Positions 708 to 8,238 of a DNA stretch of 64,000 bases are shown in pieces; positions within the stretch are counted from its first letter, which is position 1, and the number at the start of each line of letters is the position of its first letter. Location of the stretch: positions 3,933,501-3,997,500 of the forward strand of contig NZ_CP048411.1 in NCBI RefSeq assembly GCF_019355055.1, given 5' to 3'. Source of the stretch: Pseudomonas sp. MTM4. Its GTDB lineage: Bacteria > Pseudomonadota > Gammaproteobacteria > Pseudomonadales > Pseudomonadaceae. The notes beneath the pieces were generated by a model. It had not been told where the DNA came from. It ran no database searches and saw only the letters and a program-made list of their open reading frames with translations. A program made the translations under genes and the position numbers.

Positions 708-1595
708 TCAGACAGTCTCGCTGACAATGTCGTCGAACAGCTCCTCTAGGGAATTCTGCGGATGAGCATTGAGCAAGGTGCCGCCGGCATCGGCAATGGA
801 GGCTAGGGTTGTCGGCATCTGAGCGCGTTCACAACTGCCTTTCCAGATCATTCCGGCATCCTCGACAAAGCCCGGGAGGGCCTTGGTGCCGTAGTAGCGC
901 ACCACGAGCGTGTTCTGGCTGGCCAGCATATCAGCGATGCTCTGCTGGGCACGGATGCGGCCCTTATGGATCATCAGGAAACGGTCGGCCAGGCGCTCGA
1001 CGTCATGAAGGATATGGGTAGAGAAAAACAGCGTGCCGCCGCCCTGGCGATACTCCTGCATCAGGTCGGCGACCTGGCGACGGCCCACCGGATCAAGACC
1101 CGACATCGGCTCATCCAATACCAGCAGTTGTGGCTCGATGGCGAAGGCATGGGCCAGTGCGGTGCGCTGGGTCATACCCTTGGACAGGTTGCGGATGCGC
1201 TTGTCTGCCGCATAGGCGATACCCAGGCGCTCCAGCCAGTGTTCGGTACGGCGATGGTTTTCGGGGCCCTTGATGCCGTGCAGACGCAGGCCGCTGCTCA
1301 CCACCTCGCGCGGCGTCAATTGATCGTAGAGATAGGGGTTTTCCGGCACATAGCCGACGCCCTGACGTGAAAGCGGATCATCCGCGGCGCGCCCCATCAG
1401 CAGCGCCTGGCCGGCATCGGCGCGCAATGCGCCGAATAGTATCTTGATGCTAGTGCTCTTGCCGGCACCGTTCTGCCCAATAAACCCGACCGACTGGCCG
1501 CTCTTGACGGTAAAGCCCACATCGTCCAGCGCCTTGATGGCCTTGCCCTTGCTCTTGAAGGACTTGTATAGCCCTCGCACTTCGATTGGTGTCAT
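708..1595 (-). CDS. ABC transporter ATP-binding protein in the pilin operon (PilH-like by context)
   Basis: A 295-aa ABC-2-class ATPase resembling CcmA/NosF types. Walker A is GQNGAGKST (40-48), the signature is NLSKGM (137-141 region, departing from LSGGQ), Walker B is LLVLDEP (157-163), and the H-loop is STH (192-194). About 75 residues follow the nucleotide-binding fold, as in exporters of this class. The start overlaps the stop of the preceding membrane-anchored protein by four bases (ATGA), implying translational coupling. With the permease and the anchored protein it forms a three-gene transporter beside a pilin, an arrangement like Myxococcus xanthus pilGHI, which is needed for pilus assembly. 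Homology to PilH is inferred from layout only. Confidence 0.88.
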   Translation of the reverse strand: MTPIEVRGLYKSFKSKGKAIKALDDVGFTVKSGQSVGFIGQNGAGKSTSIKILFGALRADAGQALLMGRAADDPLSRQGVGYVPENPYLYDQLTPREVVSSGLRLHGIKGPENHRRTEHWLERLGIAYAADKRIRNLSKGMTQRTALAHAFAIEPQLLVLDEPMSGLDPVGRRQVADLMQEYRQGGGTLFFSTHILHDVERLADRFLMIHKGRIRAQQSIADMLASQNTLVVRYYGTKALPGFVEDAGMIWKGSCERAQMPTTLASIADAGGTLLNAHPQNSLEELFDDIVSETV

Positions 1596-2425
1596 TGCGA
1601 ATCCTGTTGCTTCACATGATCGGCCAGCAGCGGCTGACCCTCGGCGGACAATAGATAACCCAGCTGCAGCGGGTCTTCAGGCAAAGCTTCAAGCCCGGCA
1701 TGGCCGATCAGCTCCTCAAGCTGCGACGGTGCACGCCCGTGTTGTTGGTGATATTCGTCGGCCGCTGTGCGCAGCGCCTGCAAGCCTTGTAGACGCACAA
1801 TGCGCGCGGCGAGCAGGGCGCGAAAATTCTCGTCCTTGCTCTGGTCATACATGGCGATAAGGATGCTCAGGGCGATTTCAGGGTCGTCGTCTCGCTCGTA
1901 CCACTTGGCCGCCATATCGCGCAGAGCTGCTGCATTGCCAGGATGGCGTTGGGCAGCCACTTCGGCCCAGTGGCCGGCCTTGTTCATGTCGCGCTCGAAG
2001 TACATAGCGTTGAATGCGTAATAGAACGCGGGCCACATATCCCAGTCTCGACTCTGTGCCGCCTTGAGCAGCACATCCTGCGCCGCAGCCACCTGGCCGT
2101 TCCACGGCAAGATGGCTGCGCCAACATAGTAGTTATCCTCGTGGCGAGAATTAAAGAACGCTGCGTCAGCCTGCAACTGCCCCTGAATGCGGTAGGTCTC
2201 CTGCTCGGTGATGGAAGCCGCCACCATCAGGCTACGAAACACGTTGAGGTTGGCAGCTAGGAAGGGATCTCCTGCCGCATAGGTCAGCTGCACCGGGATG
2301 GGCATGCGCACCCGCAGCACCTCGGCGCGGGCCTCCGGGCGGGCATGGTCGCGTAACAGCTGGCCGGTGACGGCAAAGCCCGCCCAGGCGAACAGCATGA
2401 TCGTCAGGACAAACAGCGTTCTCAT
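1592..2425 (-). CDS. membrane-anchored periplasmic helical protein between ABC permease and ATPase (unknown)
   Basis: A 277-aa protein with one N-terminal hydrophobic segment (about residues 3-23, an uncleaved anchor or a signal peptide without a lipobox Cys) and a soluble, mostly helical remainder. Stretches such as AGHWAEVAAQRHPGNAAALRD look TPR-like. No family is recognised with certainty. Both ends overlap neighbours by four bases (ATGA), so it is made together with the permease before it and the ATPase after it. By position it could be the PilG counterpart of a PilGHI-type system, acting on pilin in the periplasm. That role is inference; the coding call is firm. Confidence 0.75.
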   Translation of the reverse strand: MRTLFVLTIMLFAWAGFAVTGQLLRDHARPEARAEVLRVRMPIPVQLTYAAGDPFLAANLNVFRSLMVAASITEQETYRIQGQLQADAAFFNSRHEDNYYVGAAILPWNGQVAAAQDVLLKAAQSRDWDMWPAFYYAFNAMYFERDMNKAGHWAEVAAQRHPGNAAALRDMAAKWYERDDDPEIALSILIAMYDQSKDENFRALLAARIVRLQGLQALRTAADEYHQQHGRAPSQLEELIGHAGLEALPEDPLQLGYLLSAEGQPLLADHVKQQDSQ

Positions 2426-3222
2426 GTGAAATTGCGCCGCTGGAAGATCAACACGGCCAGCGCCAGTAAGGCGCCGATATAGGCCAGTGCATTGAGCGCC
2501 GCCAGTGTCATGGCCAGCGGCTCGGCGGGCAGGTCATAGAGCGATAGCACGCGCCAGTCCAGGCGCGACAGGTCGGGCAGCCAGACGTAGGCATGCTCCA
2601 GGAGCGGGCTGAACACTTGCTCATGCAGCGGGTCGGAACGCTCGCCGCGCAGGTAATCGATGGTCGGCCCCATGCCGCGTGCCGCCAAGGCAAAGGCCAG
2701 GCCGAGCAGAAACGGCAGAAAAGGTGTGGTCGAAAGGGTTGCTAGCAGCAGCGCAAAAGCTGCGACCACCAGCAGGTCCAGCCACAGGCCCAGCAGAACC
2801 AGGGCATAGCTCCAGCCCAACGCTGGCGGGCGCATCTGTGCGTATTCGGAGCCGAAGAGATACAGCAATACCCAGAAGGCCGCGCCGATAAACAGTACGC
2901 TCATGCCGCCCAGCGCGGCAACGGCGAAAAATCTCGACAATAGGAACTGCCAGCGGGCCACCGGGTAGGCCAGCATGAAATATACCGACTTGCGTTCGAT
3001 ATCGCGGGCCAGCAAGTCCTGCATCCAGACCAAAACCATCAGCAGCAGGACAATGCGCATACCGCTGAAAGCCACATCGAGGGTCACTGTCAGTTGCTGG
3101 CGGCCGGAAAAGTTGCCGGCCAGAAAGGCCATGCCCAGTAGTGCCAAGGTAGCCAGCAGTAGGATGCGAAAGCCGAGGCCACGCAAGCCCATGCGCACAC
3201 CAAGCCTTGTGAGTTCAAACAT
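2422..3222 (-). CDS. ABC-2 type permease in the pilin operon (PilI-like by context)
   Basis: A 266-aa protein with about six hydrophobic helices. It carries the pattern typical of ABC-2/NosY permeases: a cytoplasmic segment DIERKSVYFMLAYPVARWQF after helix 2, then paired helices and a C-terminal helix ending RRNFT. The ATG at 3222 (MFELTRLG) is chosen over one 21 bases earlier because GGAGG sits six bases before it. It is the first gene after the strong terminator that follows the two pilin genes, so it probably depends on read-through. It pairs with the ATPase at 708-1595 as a transporter or mechanotransmission-like complex; the substrate is unknown. Confidence 0.85.
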   Translation of the reverse strand: MFELTRLGVRMGLRGLGFRILLLATLALLGMAFLAGNFSGRQQLTVTLDVAFSGMRIVLLLMVLVWMQDLLARDIERKSVYFMLAYPVARWQFLLSRFFAVAALGGMSVLFIGAAFWVLLYLFGSEYAQMRPPALGWSYALVLLGLWLDLLVVAAFALLLATLSTTPFLPFLLGLAFALAARGMGPTIDYLRGERSDPLHEQVFSPLLEHAYVWLPDLSRLDWRVLSLYDLPAEPLAMTLAALNALAYIGALLALAVLIFQRRNFT

Positions 3223-3236
3223 GCTTGCCTCCATAA

Positions 3237-3266
3237 CAAACAAGCCCCCTAACGGGGGCTTGTTTG
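3237..3266 (-). terminator. perfect 13-bp hairpin terminator between the split-pilin pair and the ABC genes
   Basis: A 13-bp perfect inverted repeat (3237-3249 and 3254-3266) surrounds a four-base loop. Read on the minus strand it ends in a T-rich tail (TTGTTTGTT). It starts 14 bases after the PilA-C-like stop and ends 14 bases before the permease ATG, so it should release most transcripts after the two pilin genes and let a minority continue into the transporter. This fits a high need for pilin and a low need for accessory proteins. Confidence 0.88.
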
Positions 3267-3280
3267 AACACTAACCGCGA

Positions 3281-3733
3281 TCAGATCTCACGGTTGCAAC
3301 CGTTGGCTTTACTGAGGTCAAGGGTCCCCGTTACAACCAACCCCGCGCTGAGGTTTGTATCGGATTTGGCTGTGGGCTTGCCGCATTGAGAAACACTGCC
3401 GCCTACGGAGGAACCGGTGAATACGGTATAACCCTTGTTAGAACCGGCGACCACGCCCATCCGGTTATTGGCTGCATCATCGTTCAAGCCGGCAATTACG
3501 TTGGCCGACAGGGTGCCTTCAAAGTCGTTCTTAATGAAGCCAGCGCGGGATGCGATTGCCGTGAAAGCATATTGGCGCGCCAGGTTGATGTTAGTGGTCA
3601 CGTTGCCGATCGCATTATAGCCAGTCACGAGCGGGATGGTGGTAGTAGTACTACCACCGCCACCACCAGTAGCATGAGCACCAACGGAGACGAAAGCACT
3701 AGCGAAGAGAGCTGCGGCAATAATCTTTTTCAT
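3281..3733 (-). CDS. secreted PilA-C-like partner protein of the short pilin
   Basis: A 150-aa protein with a clear Sec signal peptide (MKKIIAAALFASAFVSVGAHA, cut after residue 21), then a Gly-Ser-Thr-rich start (TGGGGGSTTTT) and a small globular domain. Only two cysteines are present, C117 and C146, enclosing the C-terminal stretch in the manner of the disulfide loop of type IVa pilins. There is no prepilin motif. It begins 19 bases after the short pilin stop with AAGGAA eight bases upstream, so the two are co-transcribed. In Geobacter a short PilA-N is followed by a secreted PilA-C (Spc) that stabilises it; this pair has the same design. Sequence similarity to Geobacter PilA-C was not shown here, so the role is inferred from architecture. 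Confidence 0.75.
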   Translation of the reverse strand: MKKIIAAALFASAFVSVGAHATGGGGGSTTTTIPLVTGYNAIGNVTTNINLARQYAFTAIASRAGFIKNDFEGTLSANVIAGLNDDAANNRMGVVAGSNKGYTVFTGSSVGGSVSQCGKPTAKSDTNLSAGLVVTGTLDLSKANGCNREI

Positions 3734-3752
3734 CGCAAAAATTCCTTTTGAC

Positions 3753-3929
3753 TTAGTTGGAGTTGGCGATGCCGCCGGTCAGGATATTACGAGCGTCGGA
3801 TTGCGCCGACTTGTCGTAGCCCTTGGCTTGGTAATCCTGGAATTGCGGAATGGCGACTGCAGCCAGGATTCCGATGATCGCGACCACGATCATCAGCTCA
3901 ATCAGGGTAAAGCCTTTTTGCTTCTTCAT
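3753..3929 (-). CDS. short type IV pilin, prepilin leader plus alpha-1 helix only (PilA-N-like)
   Basis: A 58-aa prepilin. The leader MKKQKG is followed by [20 protein letters not shown], with F1 and E5 of the mature protein intact for PilD processing and assembly. The mature chain is only 52 residues and stops just after the helix (ending GGIANSN), about 90 residues short of a Pseudomonas pilin. Past the universal N-terminus it shares with Geobacter sulfurreducens PilA (recalled sequence) F24, Y27, K30, Y32, A36, S38, D39, R41, N42 and T45. The ATG at 3929 has AGGAG nine bases upstream; an in-frame start further up is unsupported. It is divergent from pilBCD, where pilA normally lies. Probably the major pilin subunit, acting with the secreted protein encoded next. 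Confidence 0.85.
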
Positions 3930-3975: not shown

Positions 3976-3991
3976 AGCAGCTTCTGTGCCA
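3976..3991 (-). promoter_or_regulatory. candidate sigma-54 promoter of the short pilin gene
   Basis: On the minus strand the sequence reads TGGCAC-AGAAG-CTGC, against the consensus TGGCAC-N5-TTGC: a perfect -24 box, exact spacing and one mismatch in the -12 box. It lies 47 bases before the pilin ATG, so the untranslated leader would be about 37 bases. Pseudomonas pilA is transcribed by RpoN with PilR, so this is the expected promoter type and suggests the unusual pilin is under the normal pilus control. Confidence 0.75.
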
Positions 3992-4440: not shown

Positions 4441-6144
4441 ATGAACGAAAACGCTCCTCTCGGTGGTTTAGCTCGCCAGTTGGTATTGGTTGGTCAGCTT
4501 GATGAAAAGGTCGCGCAGCAGGCCCAGCAACAGGCCCAGCGTAATCAGGTGTCGCTGGTTTCCTGGTTGGTGCAGAACAAACTGATAAAAAGTCGGACGG
4601 TGGTGGATGTCGCTGGTGAGCAGTTTGGCGTTCCGTATTTCGATCTGAGTGCTCTGGACAGGGAAACCCAGCCTACGGACCTGATTAGCGAAAAGCTGGT
4701 ACGCCAGCACCGTCTGCTTCCACTGCAGCGTCGCGGTAACAAATTGTATGTCGCGATTTCCGATCCAACTAATCATCAGGCCATCAGCGATATCCAGTTC
4801 AACACCGGGCTTTCTGTCGAATCGGTGCTGGTTGAAGATGACAAGCTTGGCGAAGCGATTGAAAAACTGTTCGAGTCTGCCGACGCTGCGATGGATGGGC
4901 TTACTGATTCTGATCTCGACGAGTTGGATGTCGAGATTAGTGGTGGCGCCAATGAAGAGGATGGAGGGCACAACGAGGCCGATGATGCGCCGGTTGTGCG
5001 CTTCGTCAACAAGATGCTGCTAGACGCAATCAAGCGCGGCTCGTCGGACCTGCACTTCGAACCCTACGAGAAATCCTATCGGGTGCGCTTCCGTACCGAC
5101 GGTGTGCTGCATGAGGTAGCGAGGCCGCCAGTGCAGTTGGTCAGTCGAATTTCCGCGCGCCTCAAGGTCATGGCGGCGCTGGATATTGCCGAGCGGCGCA
5201 AGCCGCAGGACGGCCGGATCAAGATGAAGGTCTCTAAGAGCAAGTCCATCGACTTCCGTGTCAACAGCCTGCCGACGCTATGGGGCGAGAAGATCGTGAT
5301 GCGGATCCTCGACTCATCCAGCGCCAAGATGGGCATCGATGCGCTGGGCTATGAGGAAGAGCAAAAAGCGCTGTACATGGCTGCGCTGAAGCAGCCGCAG
5401 GGGATGATTTTGGTCACCGGCCCAACGGGATCGGGCAAGACGGTTTCGCTGTACACCGGCCTGAATATTCTCAATACCATCGATGTGAATATTTCTACTG
5501 CTGAAGACCCGGTGGAGATCAACCTCGAAGGCATCAATCAGGTCAACGTCAATCCGCGTCAGGGCATGGACTTTGCCCAGGCGTTACGCGCCTTTTTGCG
5601 TCAGGACCCGGACATCATCATGGTCGGCGAAATCCGCGATCTGGAAACCGCCGAGATCGCCATCAAGGCGGCGCAGACAGGCCATATGGTGATGTCAACG
5701 CTGCATACCAACAGTGCCGCTGAAACCTTGACCCGCCTGCGCAATATGGGGGTGCCGGCATTCAATATCGCGACTTCGGTCAACTTGATCATCGCCCAGC
5801 GTTTGGCGCGCAAGTTGTGTCCCGGTTGCAAGAAGCCGGTCGAGGTGCCGCGCGACGCCTTGCTGAAGGAAGGCTTTCCAGAAGACAAGATCGGCACGTT
5901 CCAGCTTTATGGGCCGGTGGGTTGTGACAATTGCAATGGCGGTTACAAGGGCCGTGTCGGTATTTATGAAGTGGTTAAAATCACGCCTGCTCTACAGCGG
6001 CTTATCATGGAGGAAGGAAACTCCATCGATATCGCTATTCAAGCGCGCAGAGATGGCTTCAATGATTTGCGTCTTTCGGGTCTGGTCAAAGCCATGCACG
6101 GCATCACCAGCCTGGAGGAAGTCAACCGCGTGACCAAGGATTAA
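4441..6144 (+). CDS. pilB: type IV pilus assembly ATPase PilB
   Basis: A 567-aa hexameric extension motor on the cytoplasmic side of the inner membrane. An N-terminal T2SSE domain precedes the ATPase core. Visible are Walker A GPTGSGKT (327-334), the Asp-box region, Walker B with the PDIIMVGEIRD segment, a His box (STLHTN), and the tetracysteine zinc site made of CPGCKK and CDNCNGGYKGR. Length is normal for the family. It starts a tight operon: two bases separate it from pilC. The Shine-Dalgarno is weak (TAGG). It looks intact, so the pilus machine is conventional even though the pilin is not. Confidence 0.97.
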   Translation: MNENAPLGGLARQLVLVGQLDEKVAQQAQQQAQRNQVSLVSWLVQNKLIKSRTVVDVAGEQFGVPYFDLSALDRETQPTDLISEKLVRQHRLLPLQRRGNKLYVAISDPTNHQAISDIQFNTGLSVESVLVEDDKLGEAIEKLFESADAAMDGLTDSDLDELDVEISGGANEEDGGHNEADDAPVVRFVNKMLLDAIKRGSSDLHFEPYEKSYRVRFRTDGVLHEVARPPVQLVSRISARLKVMAALDIAERRKPQDGRIKMKVSKSKSIDFRVNSLPTLWGEKIVMRILDSSSAKMGIDALGYEEEQKALYMAALKQPQGMILVTGPTGSGKTVSLYTGLNILNTIDVNISTAEDPVEINLEGINQVNVNPRQGMDFAQALRAFLRQDPDIIMVGEIRDLETAEIAIKAAQTGHMVMSTLHTNSAAETLTRLRNMGVPAFNIATSVNLIIAQRLARKLCPGCKKPVEVPRDALLKEGFPEDKIGTFQLYGPVGCDNCNGGYKGRVGIYEVVKITPALQRLIMEEGNSIDIAIQARRDGFNDLRLSGLVKAMHGITSLEEVNRVTKD

Positions 6145-6146
6145 CC

Positions 6147-7370
6147 ATGGCGCAGCAGAAAGCGTTGAAAACCAGTGTGTTCACCTGGGAAGGCACTGAC
6201 CGCAAGGGCAGCAGGATCAAGGGAGAGCTGTCTGGCCAGAGCCCGGCGCTGATCAAGGCGCAACTGCGCAAGCAGGGCATTAATCCGCTTAAGGTGCGCA
6301 AGAAAGCGGTCTCGCTGTTCAGCGCGGGCAAGAAGATCAAGCCGATGGACATCGCGCTGTTCACCCGGCAGATGGCGACCATGATGAAGGCCGGTGTGCC
6401 GTTGTTGCAGTCGTTCGACATCATCGGTGAGGGCTTCGACAATTCGAACATGCGCAAGCTGGTGGATGACGTGAAGCAAGAGGTGGCCGCTGGTAACAGC
6501 TTCGCCGGTTCGTTGCGCAAGAAGCCGCAATATTTCGATGACCTTTATTGCAACCTGGTGGAATCCGGTGAGCAGTCCGGCGCGCTGGAAACCTTGCTGG
6601 ATAGGGTCGCAACCTACAAGGAAAAGACCGAGCAGCTCAAGGCTAAGATTAGAAAGGCAATGACTTATCCGATAGCAGTTATTGTGGTGGCGGTCATAGT
6701 TTCCGCGATCCTGCTGATCAAGGTGGTGCCACAGTTTGAGAATGTATTTCACGGTTTCGGTGCGGAACTGCCTGCTTTCACCATGATGGTGATTGGGCTC
6801 TCGCGCTGGCTGCAGGACTGGTGGTATCTGGTTATCGTTGGGATGTTTGCGGCGGCATTTCTATTCAAGCATAGCTATAAGCGCTCGGAAAAATTTCGCG
6901 ATGTGCTGGATAGAGGGCTCCTCAGGTTGCCGATTGTAGGCAACATTCTTTACAAGGCCGTTGTGGCGCGTTACGCGCGAACTCTTTCGACTACCTTCGC
7001 TGCCGGCGTACCACTTGTCGATGCGCTGGATTCGGTAGGGGGTGCCACTGGTAACGTAGTGTTCCGCAACGCGGTCGCTAAAATTCGTAACGATGTGTCC
7101 TCCGGTGTGCAGCTTAATTTCTCGATGCGTACTACCGCGGTGTTCCCCTCAATGGCGGTTCAGATGACGGCCATTGGTGAGGAGTCAGGCTCGCTGGACG
7201 AAATGCTGGATAAAGTTGCGGGTTTCTACGAGGACGAAGTGGACAATATGGTCGATAACCTGACGACTCTGATGGAACCCATGATCATGGCGGTGCTGGG
7301 GGTGCTGGTGGGGGGGCTGATCATCGCGATGTACCTGCCTATCTTCCAGCTTGGCAGCGTGATCGGTTAA
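6147..7370 (+). CDS. pilC: inner-membrane platform protein PilC
   Basis: A 407-aa GspF/PilC protein with two repeated T2SF domains: an N-terminal cytoplasmic domain containing ALFTRQMATMMKAGVPLLQSF, hydrophobic helices near residues 173-192 and 215-240, a second cytoplasmic domain starting YARTLSTTFAAGVPLVDAL, and a C-terminal helix (MIMAVLGVLVGGLIIAMYLP). It couples PilB motion to pilin insertion. It begins two bases after pilB and ends four bases before pilD. PilC is required for natural transformation in P. stutzeri. Confidence 0.97.
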   Translation: MAQQKALKTSVFTWEGTDRKGSRIKGELSGQSPALIKAQLRKQGINPLKVRKKAVSLFSAGKKIKPMDIALFTRQMATMMKAGVPLLQSFDIIGEGFDNSNMRKLVDDVKQEVAAGNSFAGSLRKKPQYFDDLYCNLVESGEQSGALETLLDRVATYKEKTEQLKAKIRKAMTYPIAVIVVAVIVSAILLIKVVPQFENVFHGFGAELPAFTMMVIGLSRWLQDWWYLVIVGMFAAAFLFKHSYKRSEKFRDVLDRGLLRLPIVGNILYKAVVARYARTLSTTFAAGVPLVDALDSVGGATGNVVFRNAVAKIRNDVSSGVQLNFSMRTTAVFPSMAVQMTAIGEESGSLDEMLDKVAGFYEDEVDNMVDNLTTLMEPMIMAVLGVLVGGLIIAMYLPIFQLGSVIG

Positions 7371-7374
7371 CTCA

Positions 7375-8238
7375 ATGATTCTTCAGTTGCTGGCCAGCAA
7401 CCTGCTGGCCTTTGTTTTCTGCGTGTTTGTGCTTGGTCTGCTGGTCGGCAGTTTTCTCAACGTCGTGATACACCGCCTGCCCATCATGATGCAGCGCGAT
7501 TGGCGCGCTCAGGCTCGTGAGTTTCTCGAGCTGCCTGGCGAGCCTGCCACGACGTTCAATCTGATCCTCCCTCACTCCCACTGCCCGCACTGCGATCACG
7601 AAATTCGGCCGTGGGAGAACATCCCGTTGGTGAGTTGGCTGGCGCTGCGGGGCAAGTGTTCGTCATGCAAGGCGCCGATCAGCAAACGCTACCCTTTAGT
7701 TGAGCTGGCGTGCGGATTGCTCTCGGGCTACGTCGCCTGGCATTTCGGCTTCACCTGGCAGGCCGGTGCGATGTTGCTGCTGACCTGGGGGCTGCTGGCG
7801 ATGAGCATGATCGATGTCGATCATAAGCTGCTGCCGGACTCCCTCGTGTTGCCGCTGCTTTGGCTGGGATTGCTCGTCAATCTGTTCGGCCTGTTCGCTA
7901 CGCTGCCGGATGCGGTATGGGGTGCGGTTGCCGGCTATCTCAGCCTGTGGTCGGTGTACTGGTTGTTCAAGCTGGTGACCGGCAAGGAGGGCATGGGCTA
8001 TGGCGACTTTAAGCTGCTGGCGATGCTTGGTGCCTGGGGTGGGTGGCAGGTCTTGCCGTTGACCATTCTGTTGTCGTCGGTCGTTGGGGCGGTGCTGGGT
8101 ACGATCATGCTGCGTGTGCAGAAGGCCGATAGCGGCACGGCCATTCCTTTTGGGCCCTATCTGGCGATCGCTGGCTGGGTCGCCCTGCTTTGGGGTGATC
8201 AAATCACGTCGAGTTATCTGCAGTTCGCGGGGTTCTGA
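7375..8238 (+). CDS. pilD: prepilin peptidase and N-methyltransferase PilD
   Basis: A 287-aa bifunctional membrane aspartate peptidase that cuts prepilin leaders (such as MKKQKG of the short pilin here) and methylates the new N-terminus. The N-terminal domain carries the two CxxC pairs (CPHCDHE and CSSCK) usual for the bifunctional form. The catalytic aspartates are in SMIDVDHKLLPD and the GYGDFK motif, within a bundle of about eight helices. It also serves the type II secretion pseudopilins of the genus. It is the third gene of pilBCD. Confidence 0.97.
   Translation: MILQLLASNLLAFVFCVFVLGLLVGSFLNVVIHRLPIMMQRDWRAQAREFLELPGEPATTFNLILPHSHCPHCDHEIRPWENIPLVSWLALRGKCSSCKAPISKRYPLVELACGLLSGYVAWHFGFTWQAGAMLLLTWGLLAMSMIDVDHKLLPDSLVLPLLWLGLLVNLFGLFATLPDAVWGAVAGYLSLWSVYWLFKLVTGKEGMGYGDFKLLAMLGAWGGWQVLPLTILLSSVVGAVLGTIMLRVQKADSGTAIPFGPYLAIAGWVALLWGDQITSSYLQFAGF

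Follow-up and report, generated by a model that had tools for sequence, protein, structure and literature searches.

Gene organisation and selection at the pilA locus

The window, by which we mean the whole 64,000-nucleotide stretch of Pseudomonas sp. MTM4 DNA that was analysed, carries two small adjoining genes, pilA-N and pilA-C, divergent from pilBCD (4441–8238, plus strand) and followed by three ABC-type genes (Table 1). PilA-N has the N-terminal methylation motif, Glu5 and short leader of a type IVa prepilin, with cleavage predicted before F7, and it scored above the curated cut-offs of both Pfam N_methyl PF07963 (46.7 bits against 21.2) and TIGR02532 (41 bits). Its mature part has no globular domain, and the adjoining gene encodes a secreted partner whose Sec-type leader was judged by eye. 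The original prediction of a helix-only pilin divergent from pilBCD and, 19 nt on, a Sec-type protein with a C-terminal cysteine pair was borne out on both counts. Behind the PilA-C leader, ACC-rich repeats (window 3640–3680) encode a Gly/Thr linker whose length differs between relatives, and slippage is possible.

Table 1. Features of the split pilin locus and its surroundings
Feature	Positions	Strand	Remarks
ABC ATPase	708..1595	minus	PF00005
277-aa protein	1592..2425	minus	without Pfam/NCBIfam family; tracks short pilins
ABC-2-like permease	2422..3243	minus	start codon uncertain; Pfam matches below curated cut-off
Perfect 12-bp hairpin, loop TAAC	3238..3265		3' of pilA-C, ahead of ABC genes
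pilA-C, class A	3281..3733	minus	150 aa; Sec-type leader; predicted beta domain; Cys117/Cys146
Gap pilA-N/pilA-C	3734..3752	minus	19 nt
pilA-N	3753..3929	minus	ATG 3929 to stop 3753; 58-aa prepilin, 52 mature residues, alpha-1 only
Sigma-54-like -24/-12 site TGGCACAGAAGCTGC	3977..3991	minus	47 nt upstream of pilA-N start; putative
pilB, assembly ATPase	4441..6144	plus	lineage tracks pilin architecture
pilC, platform protein	6147..7370	plus	lineage tracks pilin architecture
pilD, prepilin peptidase	7375..8238	plus	not part of the exchanged block

Scanning upstream of pilA-N with the sigma-54 -24/-12 consensus gave a putative site that is one of two one-mismatch sites within the window, where the plain pattern is rarer than in shuffles (55 found against 90 expected). 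A looser form lies upstream of 19/29 related short pilins and is missing at 10/29. The hairpin between pilA-C and the ABC genes is a possible terminator.

Scanned twice, the 4.69-Mb single-contig genome returned 10 prepilin-type N-termini each time. The nine besides PilA-N belong to a type II secretion cluster and to a minor-pilin/PilY1-like cluster surrounding a 1280-aa gene; we assigned the names Gsp, PilY1 and minor pilin from gene order, size and motif. None of the 10 resembles a full-length major PilA, whose presence elsewhere in the genome the original prediction had singled out for checking.

Across 15 pairs drawn from six class A loci, PilA-N showed a dN of 0–0.043 against a dS of 0.36–1.80, and PilA-C a dN of 0.16–0.45 against a dS of 1.55 or more, often saturated. 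Both chains are constrained, the variable one being the C chain, and the recurrence of the pair across species under purifying selection is beyond chance. The summed lengths resemble a full-length pilin, which might suggest decay of a full-length pilA, a pseudogene product or a sequencing error. This is hardly credible: the second gene has its own leader, and purifying selection has kept both genes in different species and genera.

Relation to Geobacter PilA-N/PilA-C

The top PDB sequence matches of PilA-N were Geobacter geopilin domain 1 proteins (7.6e-17, 1e-15 and 1.3e-14). Aligned by hand with 2m7g past P22, it shares 11 residues (Q23, F24, Y27, K30, Y32, A36, S38, D39, R41, N42 and T45), so the ten matches to G. 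sulfurreducens PilA beyond the universal N-terminus given in the original prediction were a fair count. As in the Geobacter PilA-N/PilA-C system (PDB 6vk9, 7tgg, 9egp), a gene for a helix-only pilin is followed by one for a secreted protein with a beta domain, a predicted one in the case of the window; the Geobacter PilA-N, however, has 61 mature residues in the description within PMC11046646, compared with 52 here, and more late aromatics, and in the window the gene order differs, with pilB divergent.

For the C chain there is no established sequence link to Geobacter PilA-C. Searching PDB sequences with phmmer gave no match for PilA-C or for one distant partner, and PilA-C belongs to no Pfam or NCBIfam family. 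Two low-scoring candidates, a Stx2b subunit B model (E 0.11, PilA-C residues 1–23) and a guanido-kinase domain (E 0.13), fell below the cut-off and were taken as chance. The partner did match PilA-C when leaders were included, and we dropped this as proof because the match vanished without leaders and for class B partners (described below) alone. Likewise, hhalign of class A against class B partners with leaders aligned the leaders alone; the mature parts gave a probability of 62% over two collinear segments, compared with 0.06% for a reversed control, which is only suggestive of a relationship between the two classes.

The best VIA matches of the predicted PilA-C model were Geobacter PilA-C chains solved inside filaments, and the top VIA match was identical for partner classes A and B; a viral fold library gave no match below E 0.001. 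On an older reading, that of the Geobacter e-pilus, PilA-N alone would form the filament and the 150-aa protein would act outside the fibre as a periplasmic chaperone or stabiliser. GSU1497 is reported as necessary for PilA stability in Geobacter, and PilA-only pili are still defended, in passages of PMC5174107 and PMC9207759. The predicted fold is nevertheless nearest to PilA-C chains solved in filaments, the C chain is far more variable than the N chain, as fits an outer surface, and portions of PMC12954529 and PMC11046646 refer to solved structures of Geobacter filaments that contain both chains; we consider the chaperone reading unlikely.

The original prediction also hinted at conductivity, which our analysis does not support and which is best set aside for the time being. 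The only aromatics of mature PilA-N are F1, F24, Y27 and Y32, with none in the +50 to +61 cluster that a section of PMC5174107 names, so the dense aromatics of a conductive pilin are lacking, and the class B short pilins are without Y32. Parts of PMC12954529 and PMC9207759 describe the two-chain filaments of Geobacter as poor conductors, the authors of the latter treating such filaments as an artefact and defending conductive PilA-only pili.

Distribution of short pilins, their partners and the ABC genes

Of the other 55 genomes of the genus, 18 have a short pilin (52 mature residues) at the pilA site and 37 a full-length one (126–170 residues), giving a split pilin beside pilB in 19/56 genomes with the window included. 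By partner, three of these 19 loci are class A and 16 are class B, the class B partners having 4–7 cysteines and 21–49% identity to the first sequence of their class. Relatives of the window's PilA-C occur in 3/56 genus genomes, and a protein database gave 126 at E 0.01; among the 120 of these that were listed, the named ones are mostly 'hypothetical protein', with hosts including Stutzerimonas, Pseudomonas, Ectopseudomonas, Atopomonas and similar. The class A partner had no match in plasmids, and class B relatives include Thauera proteins.

In a sample of the family, 42/398 genomes from 4/19 genera carry a PilA-N-like pilin at E 1e-16 or better, a lower bound because G024 escapes the threshold. 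In that genome the short pilin (L067) has Thr for Ile at mature position 4 (GFTLTE) and a class B partner. For 30 of the 42 genomes the locus could be classified: 10 combine a class A pilin, partner and permease and 20 are class B for all three, the class B permease query itself being drawn from one of those 30 loci; L188 and L182, each with an intact class B partner, are included in the 30/30. A taxonomic-class sample yielded eight short pilins (51–52 residues), each followed by a partner, with the G387 contig stopping inside the partner and the tally resting on one of two G387 matches. The 150-aa protein might have had nothing to do with the pilin beyond lying next to it, and have been a secreted adhesin or an ABC substrate, as it has no Pfam or NCBIfam family and three ABC genes come after it; with a partner behind every short pilin that could be read in two samples, and the same top VIA match for classes A and B, this is very improbable.

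Some loci hold additional genes. In several class B loci a second short pilin-like gene (~53 mature residues) lies 3' of the partner: at L017:1343-1526, L024:1103-1367 and L025:1142-1322, and in L026, 544 nt after the first pilin. L018 encodes a second class-B-like secreted protein of 145 aa, 559 nt past the pilin and after the first partner, possibly a duplicate or silent allele. At E 1e-5, 6636/7989 scored proteins of ~32–101 aa in the protein database matched the short pilin; helix-only pilins are perhaps widespread and under-annotated, although some of these matches will be gene fragments.

At the pilB site, the ATPase and 277-aa genes lie beside 17/18 fetched split loci and in the window, compared with 0/37 full-length loci, a few of the fetched pieces being short. 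The 277-aa gene occurs in 19/56 genus genomes, namely 18/19 of the split ones (G024 excepted) and G019, where pilB adjoins a full-length pilA and another small contig holds both the 277-aa gene and an intact split pair (L182, L056); this genome is 73% complete, and the second locus is either genuine or contamination. In the taxonomic-class sample, 9/369 genomes have 277-aa relatives, and these are the nine with the strongest PilA-N matches (E 2.3e-17 or better), the gap between 2.3e-17 and the next value of 2.4e-15 having been picked after inspecting the list; they fall in five families and therefore do not count as nine independent cases. Eight of them supply the short pilins described above, and the ninth, G131, has full-length pilins. 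A phylum sample had the 277-aa protein in 23/398 genomes. Larger pieces fetched from six of its distant loci, in six other-family genomes, showed three strong matches (E 6.9e-38 or better) adjoining 52-residue pilins and class-B-like partners, two weak matches adjoining full-length pilins and one short contig without a pilin; the short flanks L200–L207 showed no pilin.

A strict tie of the trio to splitting is weakened by G131 (L141), G814 (L212) and G833 (L213), where full-length pilins with Geobacter-like N-termini lie near weak 277-aa matches, and by G024, whose short pilin comes without a 277-aa match. Given these full-length cases, what the ABC genes go with may be the pilin lineage and not the split itself. 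The Myxococcus xanthus pilus cluster likewise contains ABC genes, PilGHI, which a passage in PMC3724824 calls essential for pilin translocation over the inner membrane. We liken the trio to PilGHI by description: the window has an ABC ATPase, a permease candidate below cut-off and a third protein without family, and the M. xanthus pilin is one-chain, in contrast to the two-chain reading here.

Apparent block exchange and a probable two-chain pilus

PilB identity to the window is 85–95% in 16 split loci, 58–64% in G009 and G024 (in G024 both PilB and PilC are strongly diverged, at 58–59%) and 77–80% in full-length loci, while identities of PilD and flanking genes are not sorted by split or full-length pilin. 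We built quick trees with a simple model from the genus (Stutzerimonas) loci and counted changes of the split/full-length label. The label switches once on the PilB tree (56 rows) and once on the tree of each half of PilC (55 and 56 rows). For PilD it switches 12 times, with 8 and 13 changes when the halves are taken separately (56 rows), and for two flank proteins 13 times (51 rows). With labels shuffled on the trees of PilC and PilD, the ten values listed out of thirty shuffles ranged from 13 to 19. G041, which is near the window by flank, has, in complete steps of 500 bases, 90–95% identity to the right of 8.5 kb and 94% at 7.5–8.0 kb (pilD), then 74–83% at 5.0–7.5 kb (pilB–pilC) and no match left of 4678.

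The single label change on PilB and PilC against the many on PilD and the flank, together with the identity step in G041, argues for joint exchange: pilA-N, pilA-C, the ABC genes, pilB and pilC apparently travel between sister species as a single block, with an edge that seems to lie near pilC|pilD. PilB and PilC may be specialised by pilin architecture; physical linkage alone could also account for the pattern.

We think it likely that this type IV pilus has a two-chain major pilin. PilD would cut PilA-N, which would reside in the inner membrane, and Sec would export PilA-C to the periplasm, where its small beta domain would fold, probably with a Cys117–Cys146 bridge. PilA-C would then dock at the PilA-N end and supply the globular head that PilA-N lacks, and PilB and PilC would polymerise the pair, presumably 1:1, with PilA-C outward; the ABC trio would probably aid this pilin lineage at an inner-membrane step. 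This agrees with the split-pilin reading of the original prediction, which stands on the gene order, the agreement of N type with C class, selection, the lack of another major pilA in the genome and the PilA-C-like predicted folds. A two-chain structure might instead be short or secretory and pseudopilus-like, not a retractile pilus that serves motility or takes up DNA, and for the PilA-N/C pili of Geobacter a role in secretion or sensing has been put forward (in part of PMC12954529 and, by its title as cited, Gu 2021). The pair sits at an ordinary pilA–pilBCD site where sister species carry full-length pilins, and the genome has a separate type II secretion cluster; we judge a pseudopilus-like structure quite improbable. 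Extending the two-chain pilus reading, we suggest tentatively, as something possible yet doubtful, that the trio is a dedicated assembly factor that would load PilA-C onto PilA-N at the inner membrane, with PilB and PilC specialised and the block serving as a recombination cassette for one-/two-chain switches in Stutzerimonas.

Short-prepilin operons have a precedent in Azoarcus pilAB, the subject of a 1998 paper that PMC3262810 cites. The Azoarcus PilB differs from the assembly ATPase PilB. The closest named short pilins outside Pseudomonadaceae are from Azoarcus (80%), Accumulibacter, Chitinimonas, Azospira and such, rather than Geobacter, and the A. olearius protein is 80% identical to the window PilA-N along the whole chain. 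Azoarcus pilA is described in a section of PMC3262810 as a short prepilin gene co-transcribed with pilB, both crucial for pili. The canonical Pseudomonas/Stutzerimonas PilA (PilAI) occupies the same position as the window pair, divergent from pilB, but is one chain of 126–170 mature residues at the 37 genus loci and has no adjoining ABC trio; in P. stutzeri, pilAI is essential for pili and transformation (a passage of PMC10234333 citing Graupner 2000). Section 14 of Shu 2016 (PMC5174107) places Pseudomonas among the truncated-pilin groups, with the second gene treated there in Geobacter. A different route to two chains, cleavage of the pilin after translation, appears in part of PMC10980823 for Acinetobacter; a passage in PMC9118636, on P. 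stutzeri in fuel cells, has the truncated pilin not found in its databases; further literature includes portions of PMC6201914, PMC6060248 and PMC4471445. Our literature search, which covered few subscription journals, found, among the papers listed, no description of a PilA-N/PilA-C pair in Pseudomonas or Stutzerimonas. The expectation that a two-gene pilin would be unexpected in a Pseudomonas-type locus was half right: a split pilin is a known type of design and little noticed, but it is fairly common among relatives, with 42/398 family and 19/56 genus genomes, and Pseudomonas had already been named. More surprising are the way the ABC trio tracks the short pilin and the apparent block exchange ending at pilC|pilD.

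The solved two-chain type IV pilins that we found are those of Geobacter, where their role is disputed. In S. balearica, pilAI went undetected in the part of PMC10234333 concerned, with only a 39% match upstream of pilB; a class A partner from this species (P0031) is among the listed PilA-C relatives, and a split locus may account for the puzzle. Sister species with a split or a full-length pilin at one site, and with matching PilB and PilC, form a natural experiment that bears on assembly, retraction, DNA uptake and surface variation, and the pair provides a group of 'hypothetical proteins' with a likely function.
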